Positions 251 to 57,256 of a stretch of DNA of 64,000 nucleotides are shown here, piece after piece. The number at the start of each line of letters is the position of its first letter. Position 1 is the first letter of the stretch. Position numbers and translations under genes: made by a program. A model generated the notes under the pieces. The model searched no databases. It was not told the DNA's origin and worked only from the letters and a program-made list of their open reading frames with translations. Source of the DNA: Atriophallophorus winterbourni (Eukaryota > Platyhelminthes > Trematoda > Plagiorchiida > Microphallidae); assembly GCA_013407085.1 (NCBI GenBank), contig JACCGJ010011267.1, forward strand, positions 23,664-87,663. Direction: 5' to 3'.

Positions 251-259
251 TACTCAGTG
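251..259. repeat. Target-site duplication, left copy (TACTCAGTG)
   Basis: TACTCAGTG here is repeated exactly at 532-540, on either side of the retrozyme insert. Deleting the insert and one copy rejoins the ORF1 reading frame. Confidence 0.8.
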
Positions 260-531
260 CGATGGGTGTGAGCAACACATTACTTTGGTCATCCTTAAGC
301 GCCGTGAGTGCTTGACCAAAAATCACTTTGTGATTCTGTGTTTGAACATCGTGGTTCGTTGTGCGAACCCTATGTAACAGTGGCATCCAAGTCTAACTTT
401 GTTTACCACTTATGCACTGTTTCAAGGCACACTTAACCTAATCTTACCATCTCCGTCTGATGACGCAAACAGCCAGAAACCGGTAGTGATGTGTAAGTGC
501 GGGGGATGTGAGCAACACATTACTTTGGTCA
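260..531 (+). mobile_element. Hammerhead-ribozyme retrozyme-like insertion, subfamily B
   Basis: A 272-bp insert lies between 9-bp direct repeats. Its first and last ~30 bp are the same sequence (GTGAGCAACACATTACTTTG at about 268 and 508), with a period of 240 bp, so it holds one full ~240-bp unit plus a terminal redundancy of about 0.13 unit. A degenerate hammerhead ribozyme lies at 451-491. The unit shares an AACAGTGGCA...TTTACCA...CACTGTTTCAAG core with subfamily A elsewhere in the window. Insert longer than unit length is what reverse transcription of a circular or multimeric RNA would give; that mechanism is inference. Confidence 0.75.
451..491 (+). ncRNA. Hammerhead ribozyme, subfamily B (degenerate copy)
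   Basis: The core CTGATGA (457-463) and GAAA (476-479) are present, and stem III is AC-CG-GT (479-484) followed by A485 as the cleavage-site nucleotide. Stem II (CGC...GCC) and stem I (CTCCGT against GTGATG) are weakened by substitutions compared with the copy at 36737-36778. Cleavage is doubtful for this copy. Confidence 0.6.
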
Positions 532-540
532 TACTCAGTG
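532..540. repeat. Target-site duplication, right copy (TACTCAGTG)
   Basis: Exact match to 251-259, marking the right edge of the retrozyme insertion. Confidence 0.8.
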
Positions 541-13049: not shown

Positions 13050-13500
13050 AATGAGAAAAATATTTAAAAAATCAAGAGCAAACTATCCCGTTTTTAATCT
13101 TATCACAGAAAACCATCGAAACAATCCATTCACTGCGGAAATCTGCAAATCTTTCCTAGATGAGAAAAATAATGGAAGGTAATAAAAAACCGAGCAAACT
13201 AAACACTGCAAATAACCAAATCCAGTAGCCAGAAGGATAGGCACGCACAGACATGCAATCTGTAAACCGTTAATAAGTCACATGACCAGAGACAGCTTGT
13301 GAATCGACCGAGTCGGAAATTCTCGGTGAATGAAACGTAGTCTTTCACCTGGTTCACAATCAAGCACAGACGTTAGAAATGCCAACGTTAAGTGAAACCG
13401 ATGGAATTCAACAAATGCATTTGACAAGTCGGCGAAAACTAAGAGTCATGTGATTAGCACTAATAACAGCAGTATAAGTTGTATGTCAAACGATAGGACG
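13050..13500. other. Stretch without a recognised gene
   Basis: AT-rich sequence between a W element and a retrozyme remnant; nothing supported. Confidence 0.4.
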
Positions 13501-13504
13501 AAAA

Positions 13505-13660
13505 ACGAGAAGAGGGTTCACACATTCTGAACCTGTAAGCCACTGTTGGGTAAGGCTGCACAACTAACTTGACTCTGTGTTTGAAACAAAACCCATATTT
13601 GCAGGCATTTTCATCACAAACGCCCTACTATCGGTTCCGTGCTGTTTCAACTCGTCAATA
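13505..13660 (-). mobile_element. Retrozyme-like remnant, subfamily A
   Basis: Reading the minus strand, this holds the end of a unit with a broken hammerhead (TTGACGAGT...AACAGCAC...GGAACCGATAG on the minus strand instead of CTGATGAGT...GCAC...GAAACCGGTC) and part of the conserved unit core (CCACTGTTG and neighbours on the plus strand). Core nucleotides are mutated, so no cleavage is expected. Confidence 0.55.
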
Positions 13661-15914: not shown

Positions 15915-16065
15915 AGCTACTGTTGGATAACGCTAGCACAATAAACCTGTTCAATTCCGTGTGCACATACACACAAATGCGGAATAAATTCGTATTTATG
16001 TGAATTTCCATCATACACACATACCTCGTGACCGGTTTTGTGGTGTTTGAACATATGACATTTTT
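15915..16065 (-). mobile_element. Retrozyme-like remnant, subfamily A, degenerate
   Basis: On the plus strand, CCTCGTGACCGGTTTTGTGG followed by TGTTTGAACATATGAC is a mutated antisense copy of the subfamily A hammerhead. The preceding ~110 bp match the unit body (TTCAATTCCGTGTGCACA). Core bases are lost. Confidence 0.5.
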
Positions 16066-17495: not shown

Positions 17496-17619
17496 ACAAC
17501 ACGATACCATACAGCATTCTTTGATTCATATGACATCACTGAACCACCCGGACCAACCACGCTTTATTCAAAAAGGTTTGAACAAGAATCCTCATTTGCA
17601 TGCATTTCCATCACACACA

Positions 17620-17661
17620 CCCCACGACCGGTTTCGTGCTGTTTGCACTCATCAGGTAGGA
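17620..17661 (-). ncRNA. Hammerhead ribozyme, subfamily A, intact core
   Basis: Minus strand: stem I TTCCTAC against GTGGGG (with G-U pairs), core CTGATGA (17655-17649), stem II GTGC-AAACA-GCAC (four perfect pairs), GAAA, stem III AC-CG-GT and cleavage-site C17626-adjacent. A distal CATGC/GCATG pairing extends stem I. Stem III has only two pairs and a two-base loop, as in newt satellite hammerheads, which tend to act as dimers. Confidence 0.8.
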
Positions 17662-17857
17662 ACAGTACGATCAGGATCCGCATGCGCTTGAAACAGTGGA
17701 AGAATGGTAAACAGGTTGCGCTTGTATGCCACTGTTGGAATAAGGCTGGTACGACCAACCTGTTCAATCACATGAGACCCCGCTCATGTAGACTGGGTTT
17801 AAAACCCATGACCATAAATATAAACCACATTTGCATGCATCACCATCACACAAAACA

Positions 17858-17899
17858 CCCCACGACCGGTTTCGTGCTGTTTGCACTCATCAGGTAGGA
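17858..17899 (-). ncRNA. Hammerhead ribozyme, subfamily A, intact core
   Basis: Second unit of the array, identical in all core and stem II positions to the copy at 17620-17661: CTGATGA (17893-17887), GTGC-AAACA-GCAC and GAAACCGGTC, with stem I CCTAC/GTGGG. Confidence 0.8.
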
Positions 17900-18229
17900 A
17901 CAGTACGATCAGGATCCGCATGTACTTTAAACAGTGAGGAATGGTAAAGAAGTTGCGCTTGTACGCCACTGTTGGATAAGGCTGACATGGCCAGCCTGCT
18001 TGCAAATGAGGAGTTTTTGTTCAAGCCCGTGGATTTAAACAATCATGCGCGTGAGCATAGGTAAATGAACACGTTAGTTGTGCCAGCGTTATCTAACATT
18101 GGCTTACAAGCTCAACTTGATGAAAAAGCTTAATCGATTTCCCGTATACCATAGTGAATTTTTCAAGCTTGTAGCACCATATAATCACGCCGCCGGCGTG
18201 CCACTGACGCAATACAACCGAGTTCCGAT

Positions 18230-19690: not shown

Positions 19691-20205
19691 AATATGTGAA
19701 TGTATGTCGTCCTACAGGGCCGCTAAATGTCATATTAGGCACAACCAGGTTTAGGGATCGACCTCGCAATCTCACATGGCGCGTGTCTTAGCGCTGATAT
19801 AAGCGACTCACATACGTTTCAATTCAAATGGCATTTTTGTTATCGAAAGAGGCAGCAATTGATTAATATGGGTATCAGTGTGCACCCTGTACAAAACTGA
19901 CGAATGTCGACGCATACATGTGAGGAACGAAGTAGTCTATGAACCAAAACCGATAAGCTGATGACAGAGAGAACCAAATTAGATCAATCCAGCTATTGCT
20001 TCATGGGATATTCATATTGAAGTGAACGGAGACAGTGAAACATGTTGCATCTTATCATGTCATCAAGGCAGGTCAAACGCTCCCAGAGCGGCAAAGGCAA
20101 CAATTGAACCAAATGGCCGAAAATCGTAAGATGGTGATGAAAGTCAAGATTTTTGCCAGCTGGCATAATCTTAACGGCATGCGCATGCAAATCCCGATCC
20201 TACGG

Positions 20206-20248
20206 CCCATACCGGATGATGCAAATAGCACGAAACCGGTCGTGGGAT
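20206..20248 (+). ncRNA. Hammerhead ribozyme, subfamily A, core-mutated (unit 1)
   Basis: CGGATGA replaces CTGATGA, one G of stem II is deleted, and stem I has mismatches; GAAACCGGTC is kept. Cleavage is not expected. Confidence 0.6.
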
Positions 20249-20439
20249 GTGTGCGATGGAAATACATGCAAATCAGCATTTTGGTTCATGGTTATAGGTT
20301 TAACCCCATTATACACGTGTTTGGACACACGTGATTGAACAGGTTGGTCGTATCAGGCTTATCTAACAGTGGCAGACAAGCGTAACTTGTTTACCATTCT
20401 TTTACTGTTTCAAGCGCATGCTGATCCTGATCCTAGTGT

Positions 20440-20482
20440 CCCTACCTGATGAGTGCAAACAGCACGAAACCGGTCGTGGAGT
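20440..20482 (+). ncRNA. Hammerhead ribozyme, subfamily A, intact core (unit 2)
   Basis: Stem I CCCTAC (20440-20445) faces GTGGAG (20476-20481) with one C-A mismatch and one G-U. The core CTGATGA (20446-20452), stem II GTGC-AAACA-GCAC (20453-20465), GAAA (20466-20469), stem III AC-CG-GT and cleavage after C20475 all fit the type I hammerhead. Confidence 0.8.
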
Positions 20483-20675
20483 GTGTGTGTGATGGAAATA
20501 CATGCAAATCAGCATTTTGGTTCATGGTTATAGGTTTAACCCCATTATACACGTGTTTGGACACACGTGATTGAACAGGTTGGTCGTATCAGGCTTATTT
20601 AACAGTGGCAGACAAGCGCAACTTGTTTACCATTCTTTTACTGTTTCAAGCGCATGCTGATCCTGATCCTACTGT

Positions 20676-20717
20676 CCCTACCTGATGAGTACAAACATCA
20701 CGAACCAGGCCGTGGGG
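20676..20717 (+). ncRNA. Hammerhead ribozyme, subfamily A, core-mutated (unit 3)
   Basis: CTGATGA and stem I (CCCTAC/GTGGGG) are intact, but GAAA has become GAAC and stem II has two mismatches (GTAC against TCAC). It should be inactive. Confidence 0.6.
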
Positions 20718-20910
20718 TGTGTGCGTGATGGAAATGCATGTAAATGAGCATTTTCGTTCGGGGTCATGGGTTTAAACCCAGTATACATGAGTGTGTGCTC
20801 ATGTGATTGAACAGGGTGGTCGTATCAGGCTTATTCAACAGTGGCATACAAGCGCAACTTGGTTACCATTCTTCCACTGTTTCAAGCGCATGCGGATCCT
20901 GATTTTACTT

Positions 20911-20956
20911 TCCTTACATGATGAGTGCAAACAGCACAAAACCGGTCGCGGGGTGT
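20911..20956 (+). ncRNA. Hammerhead ribozyme, subfamily A, core-mutated (unit 4)
   Basis: The first core base is changed (ATGATGA), and the GAAA guanine is lost (GCAC-AAAA). Stem II GTGC/GCAC is still perfect. Inactive by known core requirements. Confidence 0.6.
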
Positions 20957-21423
20957 GCCGGAAATGCATGCAATTAAGCATTTTTATTAACCAAAGATGC
21001 TTGGATAACAAACAAGAAGTCGGCCGATAATCGGGAACGGGTGTGCGTGATGCGATATGTAAAAACGGTTCTGATAAAAATAGTCTGTTTGTCATTCAAC
21101 TCAACGTAATAGCATTTCTGGCAAGTCGTTAACTTATCCCCCTTTAAAATATGATCTAGAATCATGGCATTGGCAAAGGCTCTTTATTCACTGTCGATGA
21201 GACAGCAGAGACCGCACCAAAACACCGAGACTAGAATATTTTTGCACTTACCACGCTCAAGAGTTATTGATGGTTGTATATGGAAGCAAAAACTCAAGAT
21301 GTACATCCCACATACAAGCTATTCATTTTAATACTACCTTAAATAACCCCGTGCTCTGACACATGAAGAATACACTTACTCTAACGCCCAAAACAGGGCA
21401 CTGTCTCAGGTGGGCCAACACTG

Positions 21424-32736: not shown

Positions 32737-32920
32737 TTGTTCACTTTTCTATTTTCTCAATGTTCCCTACACGTTTTGTACATTTCATTGTTTCTGTTGA
32801 ACGGCACCATATTTTATTCAGATATATATGAATTATCTGAATAAGATAAGGTGCCGTTCAACAGAAGCAATGAAATGTACAAAACGGGTAGGGAACATTG
32901 AGAGAATAGAAAAGAGCAAT
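32737..32920. repeat. Long foldback (inverted repeat with ~85-bp arms)
   Basis: The left arm (32737-32825) and the right arm (32834-32920) are complementary with about 90% identity: CAATGTTCCCTACACGTTTT and TGAACGGCACC on the left face AAAACGGGTAGGGAACATTG and GGTGCCGTTCA on the right. The loop is under 10 bases. No coding capacity and no clear target duplication were seen. It may be a foldback or MITE-type element. Confidence 0.75.
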
Positions 32921-35761: not shown

Positions 35762-36156
<395 letters not shown>

Positions 36157-36713: not shown

Positions 36714-36736
36714 AAAGTAAAGTAAAGTAAATTACA

Positions 36737-36778
36737 CTCCACTACCGGTTTCTGGCTGTTGGCCGTCATCAGGTGGAG
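36737..36778 (-). ncRNA. Hammerhead ribozyme, subfamily B, best copy
   Basis: Minus strand: stem I CTCCAC (36778-36773) pairs perfectly with GTGGAG (36742-36737). The core CTGATGA (36772-36766), stem II GGC-CAACA-GCC preceded by a C-A mismatch, GAAA, stem III AC-CG-GT and A as cleavage-site nucleotide follow. All core positions fit; the mismatch at the base of stem II may lower activity. Confidence 0.75.
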
Positions 36779-37131
36779 ACAGTGCGATGAGGTTCAGTGA
36801 GCGTTGAAACCGAGAATAAATGGTAAACAAGTGTATACTTGAATGCCACTGTTACATAGGGTTCGTACAACGAACCACGATGTTCAAACACAGAATTCCA
36901 TAGTGATTCGTGGTCAAGCACTCAAGGCGCTTATGAATGACCAAAGTGATATCTTGCTCACATTCCCCGAAATTACGCTCCACTACCGGTTTCTGGCCAC
37001 GAATCACTATGTGATTCTGTGTTTGAACATCGTGGTTCGTTGTAAGAACCCTACGCAACAGTGGCATTCAAGTATACACTTGTTTACCATTTATCCACTG
37101 TTTCAAGGCTCACTGAACCTAATCTTACTGT

Positions 37132-37173
37132 ATCCACCTGATGACGGCCAACAACCAGAAACCGGTAGTGGAG
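37132..37173 (+). ncRNA. Hammerhead ribozyme, subfamily B
   Basis: Stem I ATCCAC/GTGGAG has five pairs; CTGATGA (37138-37144) and GAAA (37158-37161) are intact, and A37167 precedes the cleavage point. Stem II is reduced to GG/CC by a G-to-A change in the loop side (CAACAACC). Confidence 0.65.
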
Positions 37174-37323
37174 TGTAATTTCGGGGGATGTTAGCAACAC
37201 ATCGCTTTGGTCATGCATAAGCGCCTTGAGTGCTTGACCAGGAATCACAATGTGATTCTGTGTTTGAACATCTGGGTTCGTTGTACGAACCCTGTGCAAC
37301 AGTGGCATTCAAGTATACACGTG

Positions 37324-37324
<1 letters not shown>

Positions 37325-37398
<74 letters not shown>

Positions 37399-37399
37399 T
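37325..37399 (+). repeat. (TTA)n microsatellite, ~75 bp
   Basis: A pure TTA run that directly follows the last retrozyme unit. Confidence 0.9.
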
Positions 37400-37930
37400 A
37401 TTATCAATATTATTATTTACAAAGGAAGTATGTATTTTTCAAATTGATCAATATGGGTGTGTGATAATAGGAGGGCACAAGATACACACACGCACGCAAA
37501 ACCTGGGGATGCAAAAATAAGGAAGGTGCGCGAACAGCAAGTCCTTCGAAACAGCCGCCGATCCGAGTGCGTTTGCTAAGAGATGAAAAAATATATGGTC
37601 CAAAGGCACGATGGGCCAAATTTCATCGTTATCATTGAACGCAGTGAAGTGAAGTGAAGCACAGTTGTTCATAAAATGAAAGAGCTCTTCAGATAAACGG
37701 GAGGAGAAGCACAGTCAACGTTGGAAGAGAACGTGGTGTAAAAGAATAAGAACACAACGAAAACATGCAATGCAGCAGCAATGTTTCAAGGGAACTGACG
37801 AAAACACGCATAGTAATAATACACAAGTGGAAAGTCTCACGAAACGCCGGAGGAGTTGACGAAAAACACAAGTGACGGAGTCGGCAGAGCTCGAACTGCT
37901 CGAACTGTTTCGCTTGGCCGTCATCATTTT
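37400..37930. other. Stretch without a recognised gene
   Basis: The part next to 37937 is the former calmodulin 3' region (read through from the lost stop); it contains the short duplication AGTTCGAGC. The rest shows nothing supported. Confidence 0.35.
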
Positions 37931-37936
37931 GACAAA

Positions 37937-38470
<534 letters not shown>

Positions 38471-38579
38471 AACATAGTTAGAAATGTATCTCACTGTTCA
38501 ATATTATTCTTATTCATATTCGTATTATCATTAAGACTAATATTATTATTATCATTATTATTATACTACCTTCTTGAAA

Positions 38580-47749: not shown

Positions 47750-48605
47750 TTTCGAACACTAAACCACACAGTCAAACACGAACATCTGAGCTATGCTACT
47801 ATCATCGCCGTTTCGGAGCGAAAGCCTTGCATTGCACGTCCCCATGCAGCTTCAAATCACAACACCACAATCAGGGAAACCGCGAAGCCGGACAGTAGAA
47901 GCGGCAGCTCTGTCTGGCAATACCACCAGCCGCTTATTCTACGTCACTGATGGTTCAACAAAAATGCGTTTTCTGATCGACACGGGAGCCGAACGGAGCG
48001 TTATCCCACCCACAAACTCAGAACGCAAAAACCACTCTTCATTGACTCTACAAGCAGCGAACAGTACTCGAATAACCACATACGACCAACATCCACTCTC
48101 CATCGACCTCGGTCTCCTACGAAACTTTCGATGGATTTTCACTGTTGCTGATGTAAATACCCCTATCCTGAGAGCCGATTTTCTCTCACACTTTAATCTT
48201 TCAGTCAACATGAGTACACGAAAACTCATTGACAATGTCACAAAGATTAACGTCATCGGCCATTTGTGCAATTCTCCAATAGAAACTATTCGAGTCCTGA
48301 TTCCAGATACTGCTCCGAATAACGTTTCGCTCATCAGGGAATTTTCGGACATCTTTAAACCCTGTACACACGACACCCCTGTGAAGCATGACATCAAACA
48401 CCATATTTCAACCCGTAGACCCCCGGTTTTCAGTAGACCACGCAGACTGGCGCCTAACAAACTTGAAGCTGCCAAACGAGAATTCGAGCATATGATGGAA
48501 CTCGGAATAATCCGTCCATCGAATTCACCTTGGGCCACTGCTCTTCACATAGTCGAAAAGAACAAACCGGACGTCTGGCGTCCATGTGGCGATTATCGTG
48601 CTTAA
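47750..48605 (+). pseudogene. Gypsy-like protease and RT N-terminus, inverted segment
   Basis: The plus strand encodes an aspartic protease (RFLIDTGAERSVIPP, ILRADFLSHFNLSV), then the linker and the start of the RT (KREFEHMMELGIIRPSNSPW, WRPCGDYRA) up to a stop at 48605. The next residues of the RT are found on the minus strand from 47741. The segment has therefore been flipped in place relative to the rest of the element. The frame itself is open for 270 codons. No gag is visible. Confidence 0.85.
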
Positions 48606-56355: not shown

Positions 56356-56900
56356 ACCAGATACTCCTGCTTTAAGTAGCACGCCAAAAAACGTGCATCT
56401 CCCTCGGGTGCTTCGACAGAGGGCCAAGCGGGGTTAGTTTCCGAAGCACACCGAACCAGCGCTTATTGCTGTACGCTAATGTGTGCAGCATAAAGGATAA
56501 GTGGGCTGACCTCTCTTTTCTTGTGGCTGAGTTGCAACCTCGGGTTATAGCGCTTTCTGAGACCTGGCTGTCCGCACTTAACGATGTGCCAATGAACATC
56601 AGCGAGCAGTATCTCATCATTAGATGCGATAGACCTGGCGATAGGCGGTGGCGTTGCACTCCTCCTAGAGTATGGTTTGCACAATACAGGAACGGGTATA
56701 TCCCTAACCAGTAAAAACGTCCAAGTTGTTACCAGTATCCTGACTTGCTACAAGTCAGCCCTCGCAATTGCTTGTGTCTACGTCACACCCAGTGCAGCCC
56801 AGCAGGAGATTACACAGCTGATTGGGACGCTCGACAGGTCGTTTCAATCAGCTCCCAGCGTACACATCTTAGGTGATTTCAACCTCCCGGACATAAATTG

Positions 56901-57256
56901 AACTCCTCCAAGGACGGTCCCAAGCCCGTCTGAGAAAGGAGGAGGGTTGGGCTTGGGGCTAGCAACCCTATCCCGTAAAACCTACATTGCTACGAAAACG
57001 ATGACAACAGATCCGTGTTTCGGTCATGTCTGCAGGATGGATCCCAGTTCGCATACGAAGGTAGCCATGCACTGGCATCCGCAAGGTAAACGAAAAAGGG
57101 GACGGCCCAAGGAAACTTGGCGCAGAACGTTGGAACGCGAACTACATGCACAAGGATTCACGGTGCAGACAGCAACGGAAGCAGCGACAGACCGAAACCA
57201 CTGGCGTGAAGTTGTCTTCGCCTCATGTGCCACCCGGCACGGAGAGGACTGATGAT
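56901..57256 (+). mobile_element. 356-bp non-autonomous element made of a LINE head joined to an RTE-like tail
   Basis: The insert is bounded by a perfect 12-bp target duplication GGACATAAATTG (56889-56900 and 57257-57268). Its first ~80 bp (AACTCCTCCAAGGACGGTCC ... AACCCTATCCCGTAAAAC) contain CTCCTCC/GGAGGAG and CCCAAGCCC/GGGCTTGGG pairings that interlock. The rest encodes an RTE-like C-terminus (FGHVCRMDPSSHTKVAMHWH, GKRKRGRPKETWRRTLEREL, DRNHWREVV) to a TGA at 57250, and it ends GATGAT. Such a head-plus-tail copy, lacking all enzyme domains, would need a partner LINE to move. Confidence 0.85.

Follow-up and report, generated by a model that had tools for sequence, protein, structure and literature searches.

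Insertion A1, 272 nt long at positions 260 to 531 of the 64,000-nt stretch that we analysed (the window), is best explained as a copy of a hammerhead retrozyme that is non-autonomous and codes for no protein. According to this explanation, retrozyme RNA would be copied by a reverse transcriptase that is encoded elsewhere and that starts internally, the target would be duplicated over about 8–15 bp, and the enzyme would most likely come from a Penelope-like element (PLE). We put the probability of the explanation as a whole at about 55%. Three features of the copies together argue for target-primed reverse transcription: their target duplications, their preferred 3′ ends, and the head-to-head arrangement of inverted pairs.

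Results

A repeat unit inserted between exact 9-bp repeats

The direct repeat TACTCAGTG occurs at 251–259 and, without a mismatch, again at 532–540, bracketing A1 (260–531, plus strand). Among 3,000 random 272-bp intervals from the window, four had a repeat of at least 9 bp near both ends, and none had 9-mers that abutted the interval exactly. The insert amounts to 1.13 units of a 240-nt repeat (family A), and its homology to the unit spans 256–535. Aligned at the 240-nt period, 256–295 and 496–535 have the same base at 36 of 40 positions. Because parts of the target (AGTG at 256–259 and T at 532) match the unit too, the ends of A1 are uncertain by a few bases. The terminal redundancy forms a 3′ tail of 32–36 nt after the hammerhead (500–531); a similar 3′ region is present in other copies, which also end elsewhere. 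A1 is non-coding (all six frames of 260–531 contain a stop), and its GC content is 0.45–0.46. A first-pass annotation of this DNA had already described an insert between 9-bp repeats that is longer than one unit, with a 240-bp period and redundant ends, and these measurements bear it out.

The target was a LINE ORF1

On either side of A1, the minus strand carries remnants of a LINE ORF1. The remnant at 541–728 is the side with a Cys/His finger (C1_1 at E = 0.0099, below the cut-off); from frame reading, the remnant beyond the insertion (1–250) is coiled-coil-like by eye and has further stops. The first-pass annotation held that deleting the insert and one repeat rejoins this frame exactly. The frame is open across the site, but there are stops further out on both sides.

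To find paralogues of the host LINE, we used the right flank as a query against the genome, and 40 of 1,689 first-look candidates were scored. From the 40 matches listed we retrieved 10 loci (numbered with L below), of which three are filled and seven are unfilled. In six of the seven unfilled paralogues, the left flank meets the right flank with 5–9 bases of overlap, as expected of a single copy of the target (for one of the six, L069, the left flank that aligns is only 59 nt long). In the seventh, L070, 18 nt separate the aligned pieces of flank. L019 holds one further unfilled copy of the LINE. One unfilled paralogue, L064, has a separate family A copy at 530–769, about 0.7 kb away.

In the unfilled locus L067, the site is crossed by an open frame that has this finger and the residues that follow it. 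Downstream is a second frame, which is endonuclease-like (Exo_endo_phos at E = 0.0085, under the Pfam cut-off); together these identify the target of A1 as a LINE ORF1. The ORF1 frame of L067 matched no family. Whether such an ORF1 exists anywhere without the insert had been set in advance as a test of the insertion claim, and in L067 it does, open across the site.

The filled loci are L001 (the window), L002 (on the same contig, 14 kb away), and L003 (on another contig). They have the insertion, the target repeat, and the flanks in common at about 91–96% identity, and blocks of several kilobases were duplicated along with the insertion at about 91–97%. The A1 insertion is therefore older than this segmental duplication. 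We ruled out three independent insertions: there was one event, which was later duplicated with kilobases of flank. Overall, the unfilled sites support the earlier claim that A1 transposed as a discrete element with a target duplication, and so does the finding that other copies have end repeats more often than controls (see below).

Two related families of repeats

We searched the genome (537 Mb in 15,840 contigs) for family A, with a 272-nt query, and for a second family, B, whose unit is 236 nt. There were 3,478 first-look candidates for family A and 4,397 for family B, and 40 of each were scored. The unit has other genomic copies, with thousands of first-look candidates per family; the families are related to each other, and the two sets of candidates may overlap. 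Both families occur as tandem arrays (for example, at L019, L022, L023, and L038) and as single dispersed copies. The side pieces of genome matches stop about 50 nt past the main match, apparently an effect of the search itself, and were not taken as element ends; ends were scored only in loci that were retrieved with their flanks. A search of a plasmid collection led nowhere.

Besides A1, the window contains eight further pieces of these families. Family A is represented by a head-to-head pair at 36732–37327 (36732–36997 on the minus strand and 36994–37327 on the plus strand) and by an old fragment at 38395–38512 (minus). Family B is represented by an array of about 3.3 units of 236 nt at 20178–20984 (plus), by a head-to-head pair at 17579–18119 (17579–17998 on the minus strand and 18001–18119 on the plus strand), and by old fragments at 13500–13657 and 15916–16052 (both minus). 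Long (TTA)n arrays lie at 35764–36156 and 37325–37417, one of them directly 3′ of the family A copy that ends at 37327.

The hammerheads

By eye, the hammerhead core of A1 can be read at 457–485 on the plus strand: CTGATGA at 457, GAAA, a palindromic and loopless stem III (ACCGGT), and a GTA triplet, with the predicted cut after GGTA at 485. At A1, Rfam had no hammerhead match at E values up to 10. So the hammerhead that the first-pass annotation saw in the insert has readable core motifs, but it is degenerate. The only hammerhead in the window above the Rfam gathering score is at 20440–20481, within the family B array, and the family B copy at 17579–17998 has two matches just under gathering (17620–17661 and 17858–17899, minus strand). 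A strict core pattern fits 11 of the 52 family A units and fails in 41. In the family A consensus, one base of the core varies (CTGA[C/T]GA; the Rfam consensus also writes that base c), and stem II has a C-A mismatch at its base. Judging from these features, the family A hammerhead looks weakened. Axolotl work reported in PMC7229834 includes the observation that hammerheads with a weak stem III work better as dimers.

Other candidate structured elements lie elsewhere in the window. A different hammerhead insert, at 1339–1637, has a match to the Rfam model HH9 at 1541–1615 (below gathering) and is flanked by exact 16-bp repeats, TGGCTTTAAACAAAAA, at 1339–1354 and 1622–1637; perhaps it belongs to a third family of hammerhead elements. 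A twister-P1-like match at 56896–56950 scores below gathering (E = 4e-4) and lies near LINE-like frames; in passages of PMC7761336, RTE elements are described with truncated twisters at their 5′ end. The long hairpin at 32748–32910 matched microRNA models far below gathering, and it is more suggestive of an inverted-repeat transposon than of a microRNA.

Target duplications exceed the background

For each insertion, we measured the longest exact repeat shared by its two end regions, and we did the same for 1,122 controls in which left and right flanks were mispaired. We scored 34 insertions, that is, 31 rows from family A-derived loci and three from the window (two of these three are from family B). 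A repeat of at least 8 bp was found for 14 of the 34 insertions and for 38 of the 1,122 controls. At 9 bp or more, the counts were 10 of 34 and 12 of 1,122 (9 of 33 insertions if L036 and L037 are counted once), and at 10 bp or more, they were 3 of 34 and 0 of 1,122. The first-pass annotation expected target duplications at most copies. An excess over mispaired flanks is present, but an exact repeat of at least 8 bp was found in just 12 of the 31 family A rows and is absent from 19 (the 12 exclude an internal match in L034 and count L036 and L037, which are one insertion, once). Family A rows without a repeat of even 7 bp include L004, L005, L007, L011, L015, L016, L017, L020, L021, L025, L027, L028, L030, L039, L040, L042b, and L043. 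In old copies, some target duplications could be obscured by mutation.

In family B, 5 of 20 insertions and 14 of 380 mispaired controls had a repeat of at least 8 bp. This is a weak excess, and among the five, one repeat is internal to the element (L083) and two are from a single insertion (L071 and L074). We rejected the repeats of L034, L083, and L080 as target duplications because they lie inside the element.

Preferred 3′ ends

We numbered the family A consensus with cA1 at GATGTGAGCAACACATT. Of 48 family A 3′ ends, 24 fall in cA19–33 and another nine fall in cA140–152, while a 15-nt bin would be expected to hold three. The highest count in any bin among 5,000 random draws was 13 (versus 24 observed). 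As the 272-nt query could favour copies in the phase of A1, we checked two subsets. Among family A copies of over 340 nt, on which the query could not impose that phase, 7 and 5 of the 17 listed ends are in the two bins, which cover 28 of 243 nt. Among bystander copies (those other than the copies that brought in the locus), 4 and 4 of 18 ends are in these bins. Both the long copies and the bystanders keep the 3′-end excess. TTA-like sequence follows the second site in L027 and perhaps in L028.

The 3′ end of A1 lies 46 nt past the predicted cut, after a short hairpin. In family B, 11 of 20 3′ ends are in an 18-nt bin about 40–57 nt past the predicted cut (10 of 19 if L071 and L074 are counted once). 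In both families, then, 3′ ends concentrate about 40–57 nt past the predicted hammerhead cut.

The lists of 3′ ends were typed by hand and are not exhaustive. Three family A ends depend on the scoring (L028 at 142 or 168, L040 at 20 or 32, and L043 at 146 or 152), and taking L028 at 168 brings the count for long copies to 11 of 17. The long list excludes L019 (about cA22 by eye), L035 (94), and L042 (143), whose 5′ sides are cut by the end of a contig or locus; with these three added, the count is 14 of 20. The bystander list omits the minus piece of L009 (149), and the family B list omits L078 and L091, which are cut by locus ends. We also considered whether the 5′ ends of family A copies coincide with the hammerhead cut. 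This is so in about a dozen copies, but the query favours the phase of A1 and the bystanders do not show the pattern, so we rejected this idea.

Inverted copies are joined head to head

When two neighbouring pieces lie on opposite strands, they are nearly always head to head: after 15 loci were dropped as duplicates, we counted 16 head-to-head pairs and one tail-to-tail pair. Three pairs that appear at a laxer threshold (L009, L030, and position 17998 of the window) were missed by this count, and all three are head to head. The junctions in L009 and L030 are near palindromes. The head-to-head composite in L071 is enclosed by a 15-bp direct repeat, so in L071 at least, both arms come from one event. 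The composites in L012 and L075 are enclosed by 8-bp repeats, a length also found in 3–4% of mispaired flanks. For most of the head-to-head composites, we looked for an enclosing direct repeat and found none.

How the copies may have been made

We propose that a reverse transcriptase whose gene lies elsewhere would take up RNA of the 240-nt unit, in multimeric or perhaps circular form. It would nick the target, and copying would start internally, about 40–57 nt downstream of the hammerhead cut or at a second, weaker site about 120 nt further on. Copying would then proceed back across the uncut hammerhead, over a length that could exceed or fall short of one unit, and a staggered cut in the target would give a duplication of about 8–15 bp. 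Often, both target strands would prime, or the new strand would snap back, leaving two copies joined head to head.

The first-pass annotation suggested that the template was a circular or multimeric RNA. A start beyond the hammerhead, followed by passage through the intact cut site, excludes a cleaved linear monomer, and this applies to any insert of more than one unit; but uncut multimers fit as well as circles. A covalently closed circle of about 240 nt, cleaved and ligated by the hammerhead and copied more than once round, would also explain why inserts of over one unit pass the cleavage site intact, and PMC7229834 shows that retrozyme RNAs are circular in coral, mussel, and axolotl. On the other side, the tandem arrays at L019, L022, L023, and L038 could be the source of uncut multimers with this sequence, and with the mismatch at the base of stem II, cleavage of family A RNA may be slow. 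We give the circle somewhat less than an even chance. It concerns the template and is compatible with either of the enzymes considered below.

As for the enzyme, we infer from published insertions that a PLE is the most likely source. Descriptions of PLE insertions in PMC3846280 include target duplications of 8–10 bp (with a 9-bp example), a 31-bp tail that may be present or absent, and inverted pLTRs that meet head to head at palindromic junctions. According to the purified-enzyme work in PMC11167929, a PLE starts reverse transcription inside its RNA, extends both target strands, and yields a tail of 30–40 bp. In these two papers, the length of the target duplication, the head-to-head inverted repeats, the palindromic junctions, and the presence of hammerheads are like what we see here. 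The tail of A1 is also of similar length, but other copies end at other places too. These parallels are why we favour a PLE partner. PLEs encode a reverse transcriptase and a GIY-YIG endonuclease, whereas A1 encodes nothing; A1 is not itself a PLE, and it may move by PLE machinery.

The genome does contain candidates. When 150 of 1,370 candidates were scored, at least 17 PLE-type GIY-YIG endonuclease frames were above the cut-off, including several near-identical pairs. In the comparison of L050 with L060, the match ends about 43 nt after a hammerhead-like core, whose triplet is GCC in L050 and GTC in L060. This core is a pattern match only, as Rfam reported no ribozyme in any of the 14 PLE loci (of 17) that it was run on, L050 and L060 among them. 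Using blastn, we compared families A and B and the element at 1353–1622 with the 17 loci and found no convincing sequence in common with the retrozyme 3′ region. The search did find family A copies of the ordinary kind at two loci, L045 and L047. It also gave a 36-nt match to family B (E = 0.010) in the related loci L046, L057, L058, and L059, which is in a Gypsy-like frame and which we take to be due to chance. In these same four loci, inverted PLE-type endonuclease frames lie beside Gypsy-like pol frames, in an arrangement that is nearly identical across all four. Within the window, the search for a PLE gave one short and weak match, at 47928–48101.

Because the retrozyme 3′ region was not found in the 17 PLE loci compared, the main rival is twin priming by a LINE that would recognise the 3′ tail. 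In this scenario, a SINE-like retrozyme is copied in trans by a LINE (for example, of the CR1-like type in the window), ordinary twin priming makes the inverted copies, and the hairpin and ACTTTG(GTCA) at the preferred 3′ site are the tail that the LINE recognises. The window has reverse transcriptases of the LINE type; when 8,000 candidates were scored, named relatives of one of the reverse transcriptases included proteins from Dicrocoelium and Spirometra, as would fit DNA of a flatworm and probably of a trematode. SINEs that depend on LINEs usually have fixed 3′ ends, which also speaks for this scenario. Head-to-head copies do not distinguish the two enzymes, since twin priming yields inverted copies inside target duplications (as described in part of PMC2837659), and this weighs against a PLE. 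The account of Nematostella repeats in PMC4918200 includes 15-bp, LINE-like target duplications. Yet the duplications here lack a T/AAAA-like start by eye, ARAGORN found no tRNA in the window (a degenerate tRNA could escape it), no LINE 3′ end like that of the retrozymes came to notice incidentally, and a redundant tail beyond the ribozyme is characteristic of PLEs. On balance we consider this scenario, recognition tail included, less likely than a PLE.

An RNA step might be dispensed with altogether if the copies spread as satellite-type DNA, by unequal exchange, re-insertion of circular DNA, or gene conversion. Long tandem arrays do exist, and segmental duplication did multiply the A1 locus, but neither the excess of target duplications, nor the preferred 3′ ends, nor the one-sided polarity of the inverted copies is expected from such dispersal, and we find it very improbable. 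Our preferred explanation, internal initiation by a reverse transcriptase from elsewhere, has evidence against it too: the 19 of 31 family A rows without an 8-bp repeat, the weak excess in family B, and the weakened hammerhead. Also, the targets of PLEs are said to be AT-rich and the target duplications here, by eye, are not, which counts against a PLE. The most specific form of the proposal is that PLEs trans-mobilise animal retrozymes, starting internally at a site with a hairpin, 40–57 nt past the cut, on uncleaved RNA (multimers or circles) and extending both nicked strands of the target to give head-to-head pairs in one duplication; we regard it as an even bet. If it is true, insertion scars would identify the missing reverse transcriptase for a whole class of elements.

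Comparison with known systems

A1 does not match two other kinds of element. Plant LTR retrozymes have a 4-bp target duplication and LTRs of about 350 bp, while A1 has a 9-bp duplication and a redundancy of only 40 nt. A tRNA-derived SINE would have a tRNA-related head, and ARAGORN found none in the window. Schistosomes reportedly carry hammerhead repeats, Sm-alpha and Sj-alpha (Ferbeyre in 1998 and Laha in 2000 are said to have described them). By description, families A and B resemble the schistosome repeats and the W elements of S. mansoni, as characterised in sections of PMC8490949, in being hammerhead repeats dispersed in a flatworm genome; those sections mention a possible target duplication in one case, W25.2. 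Schistosome repeats hold a tRNA, according to a passage in PMC4918200, whereas ARAGORN found none in this window.

The closest match is to the metazoan non-LTR retrozymes. In the descriptions given by Cervera and de la Pena in 2020 (PMC7229834), these are non-coding units of about 240 nt, both tandem and dispersed, with GC content under 50%, as here; they have type I hammerheads (in our case, family B passes Rfam gathering and A1 is degenerate), and their target duplications, when present, exceed 4 bp (9 bp for A1). The units of metazoan retrozymes range from about 150 to 450 bp, and families A and B fit at 240 and 236 nt. That the hammerhead repeats of animals are non-autonomous retroelements and have long target duplications is already set out in passages of PMC7229834 and PMC4918200. 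Their reverse transcriptase is left open in the relevant passages of PMC7229834 and PMC7761336, with no motif that would betray it noted in the latter, and PLEs are named in the former as strong candidate partners on circumstantial grounds. Clustered 3′ ends and head-to-head inverted copies set families A and B apart from metazoan retrozymes as those passages describe them, and in the open-licence literature, we found no description of either feature for retrozymes. The kind of element is already known, and the anatomy of its insertions is the contribution here: with preferred 3′ ends in two families and one-sided head-to-head copies, the question of which reverse transcriptase is used becomes testable from genome sequence alone.
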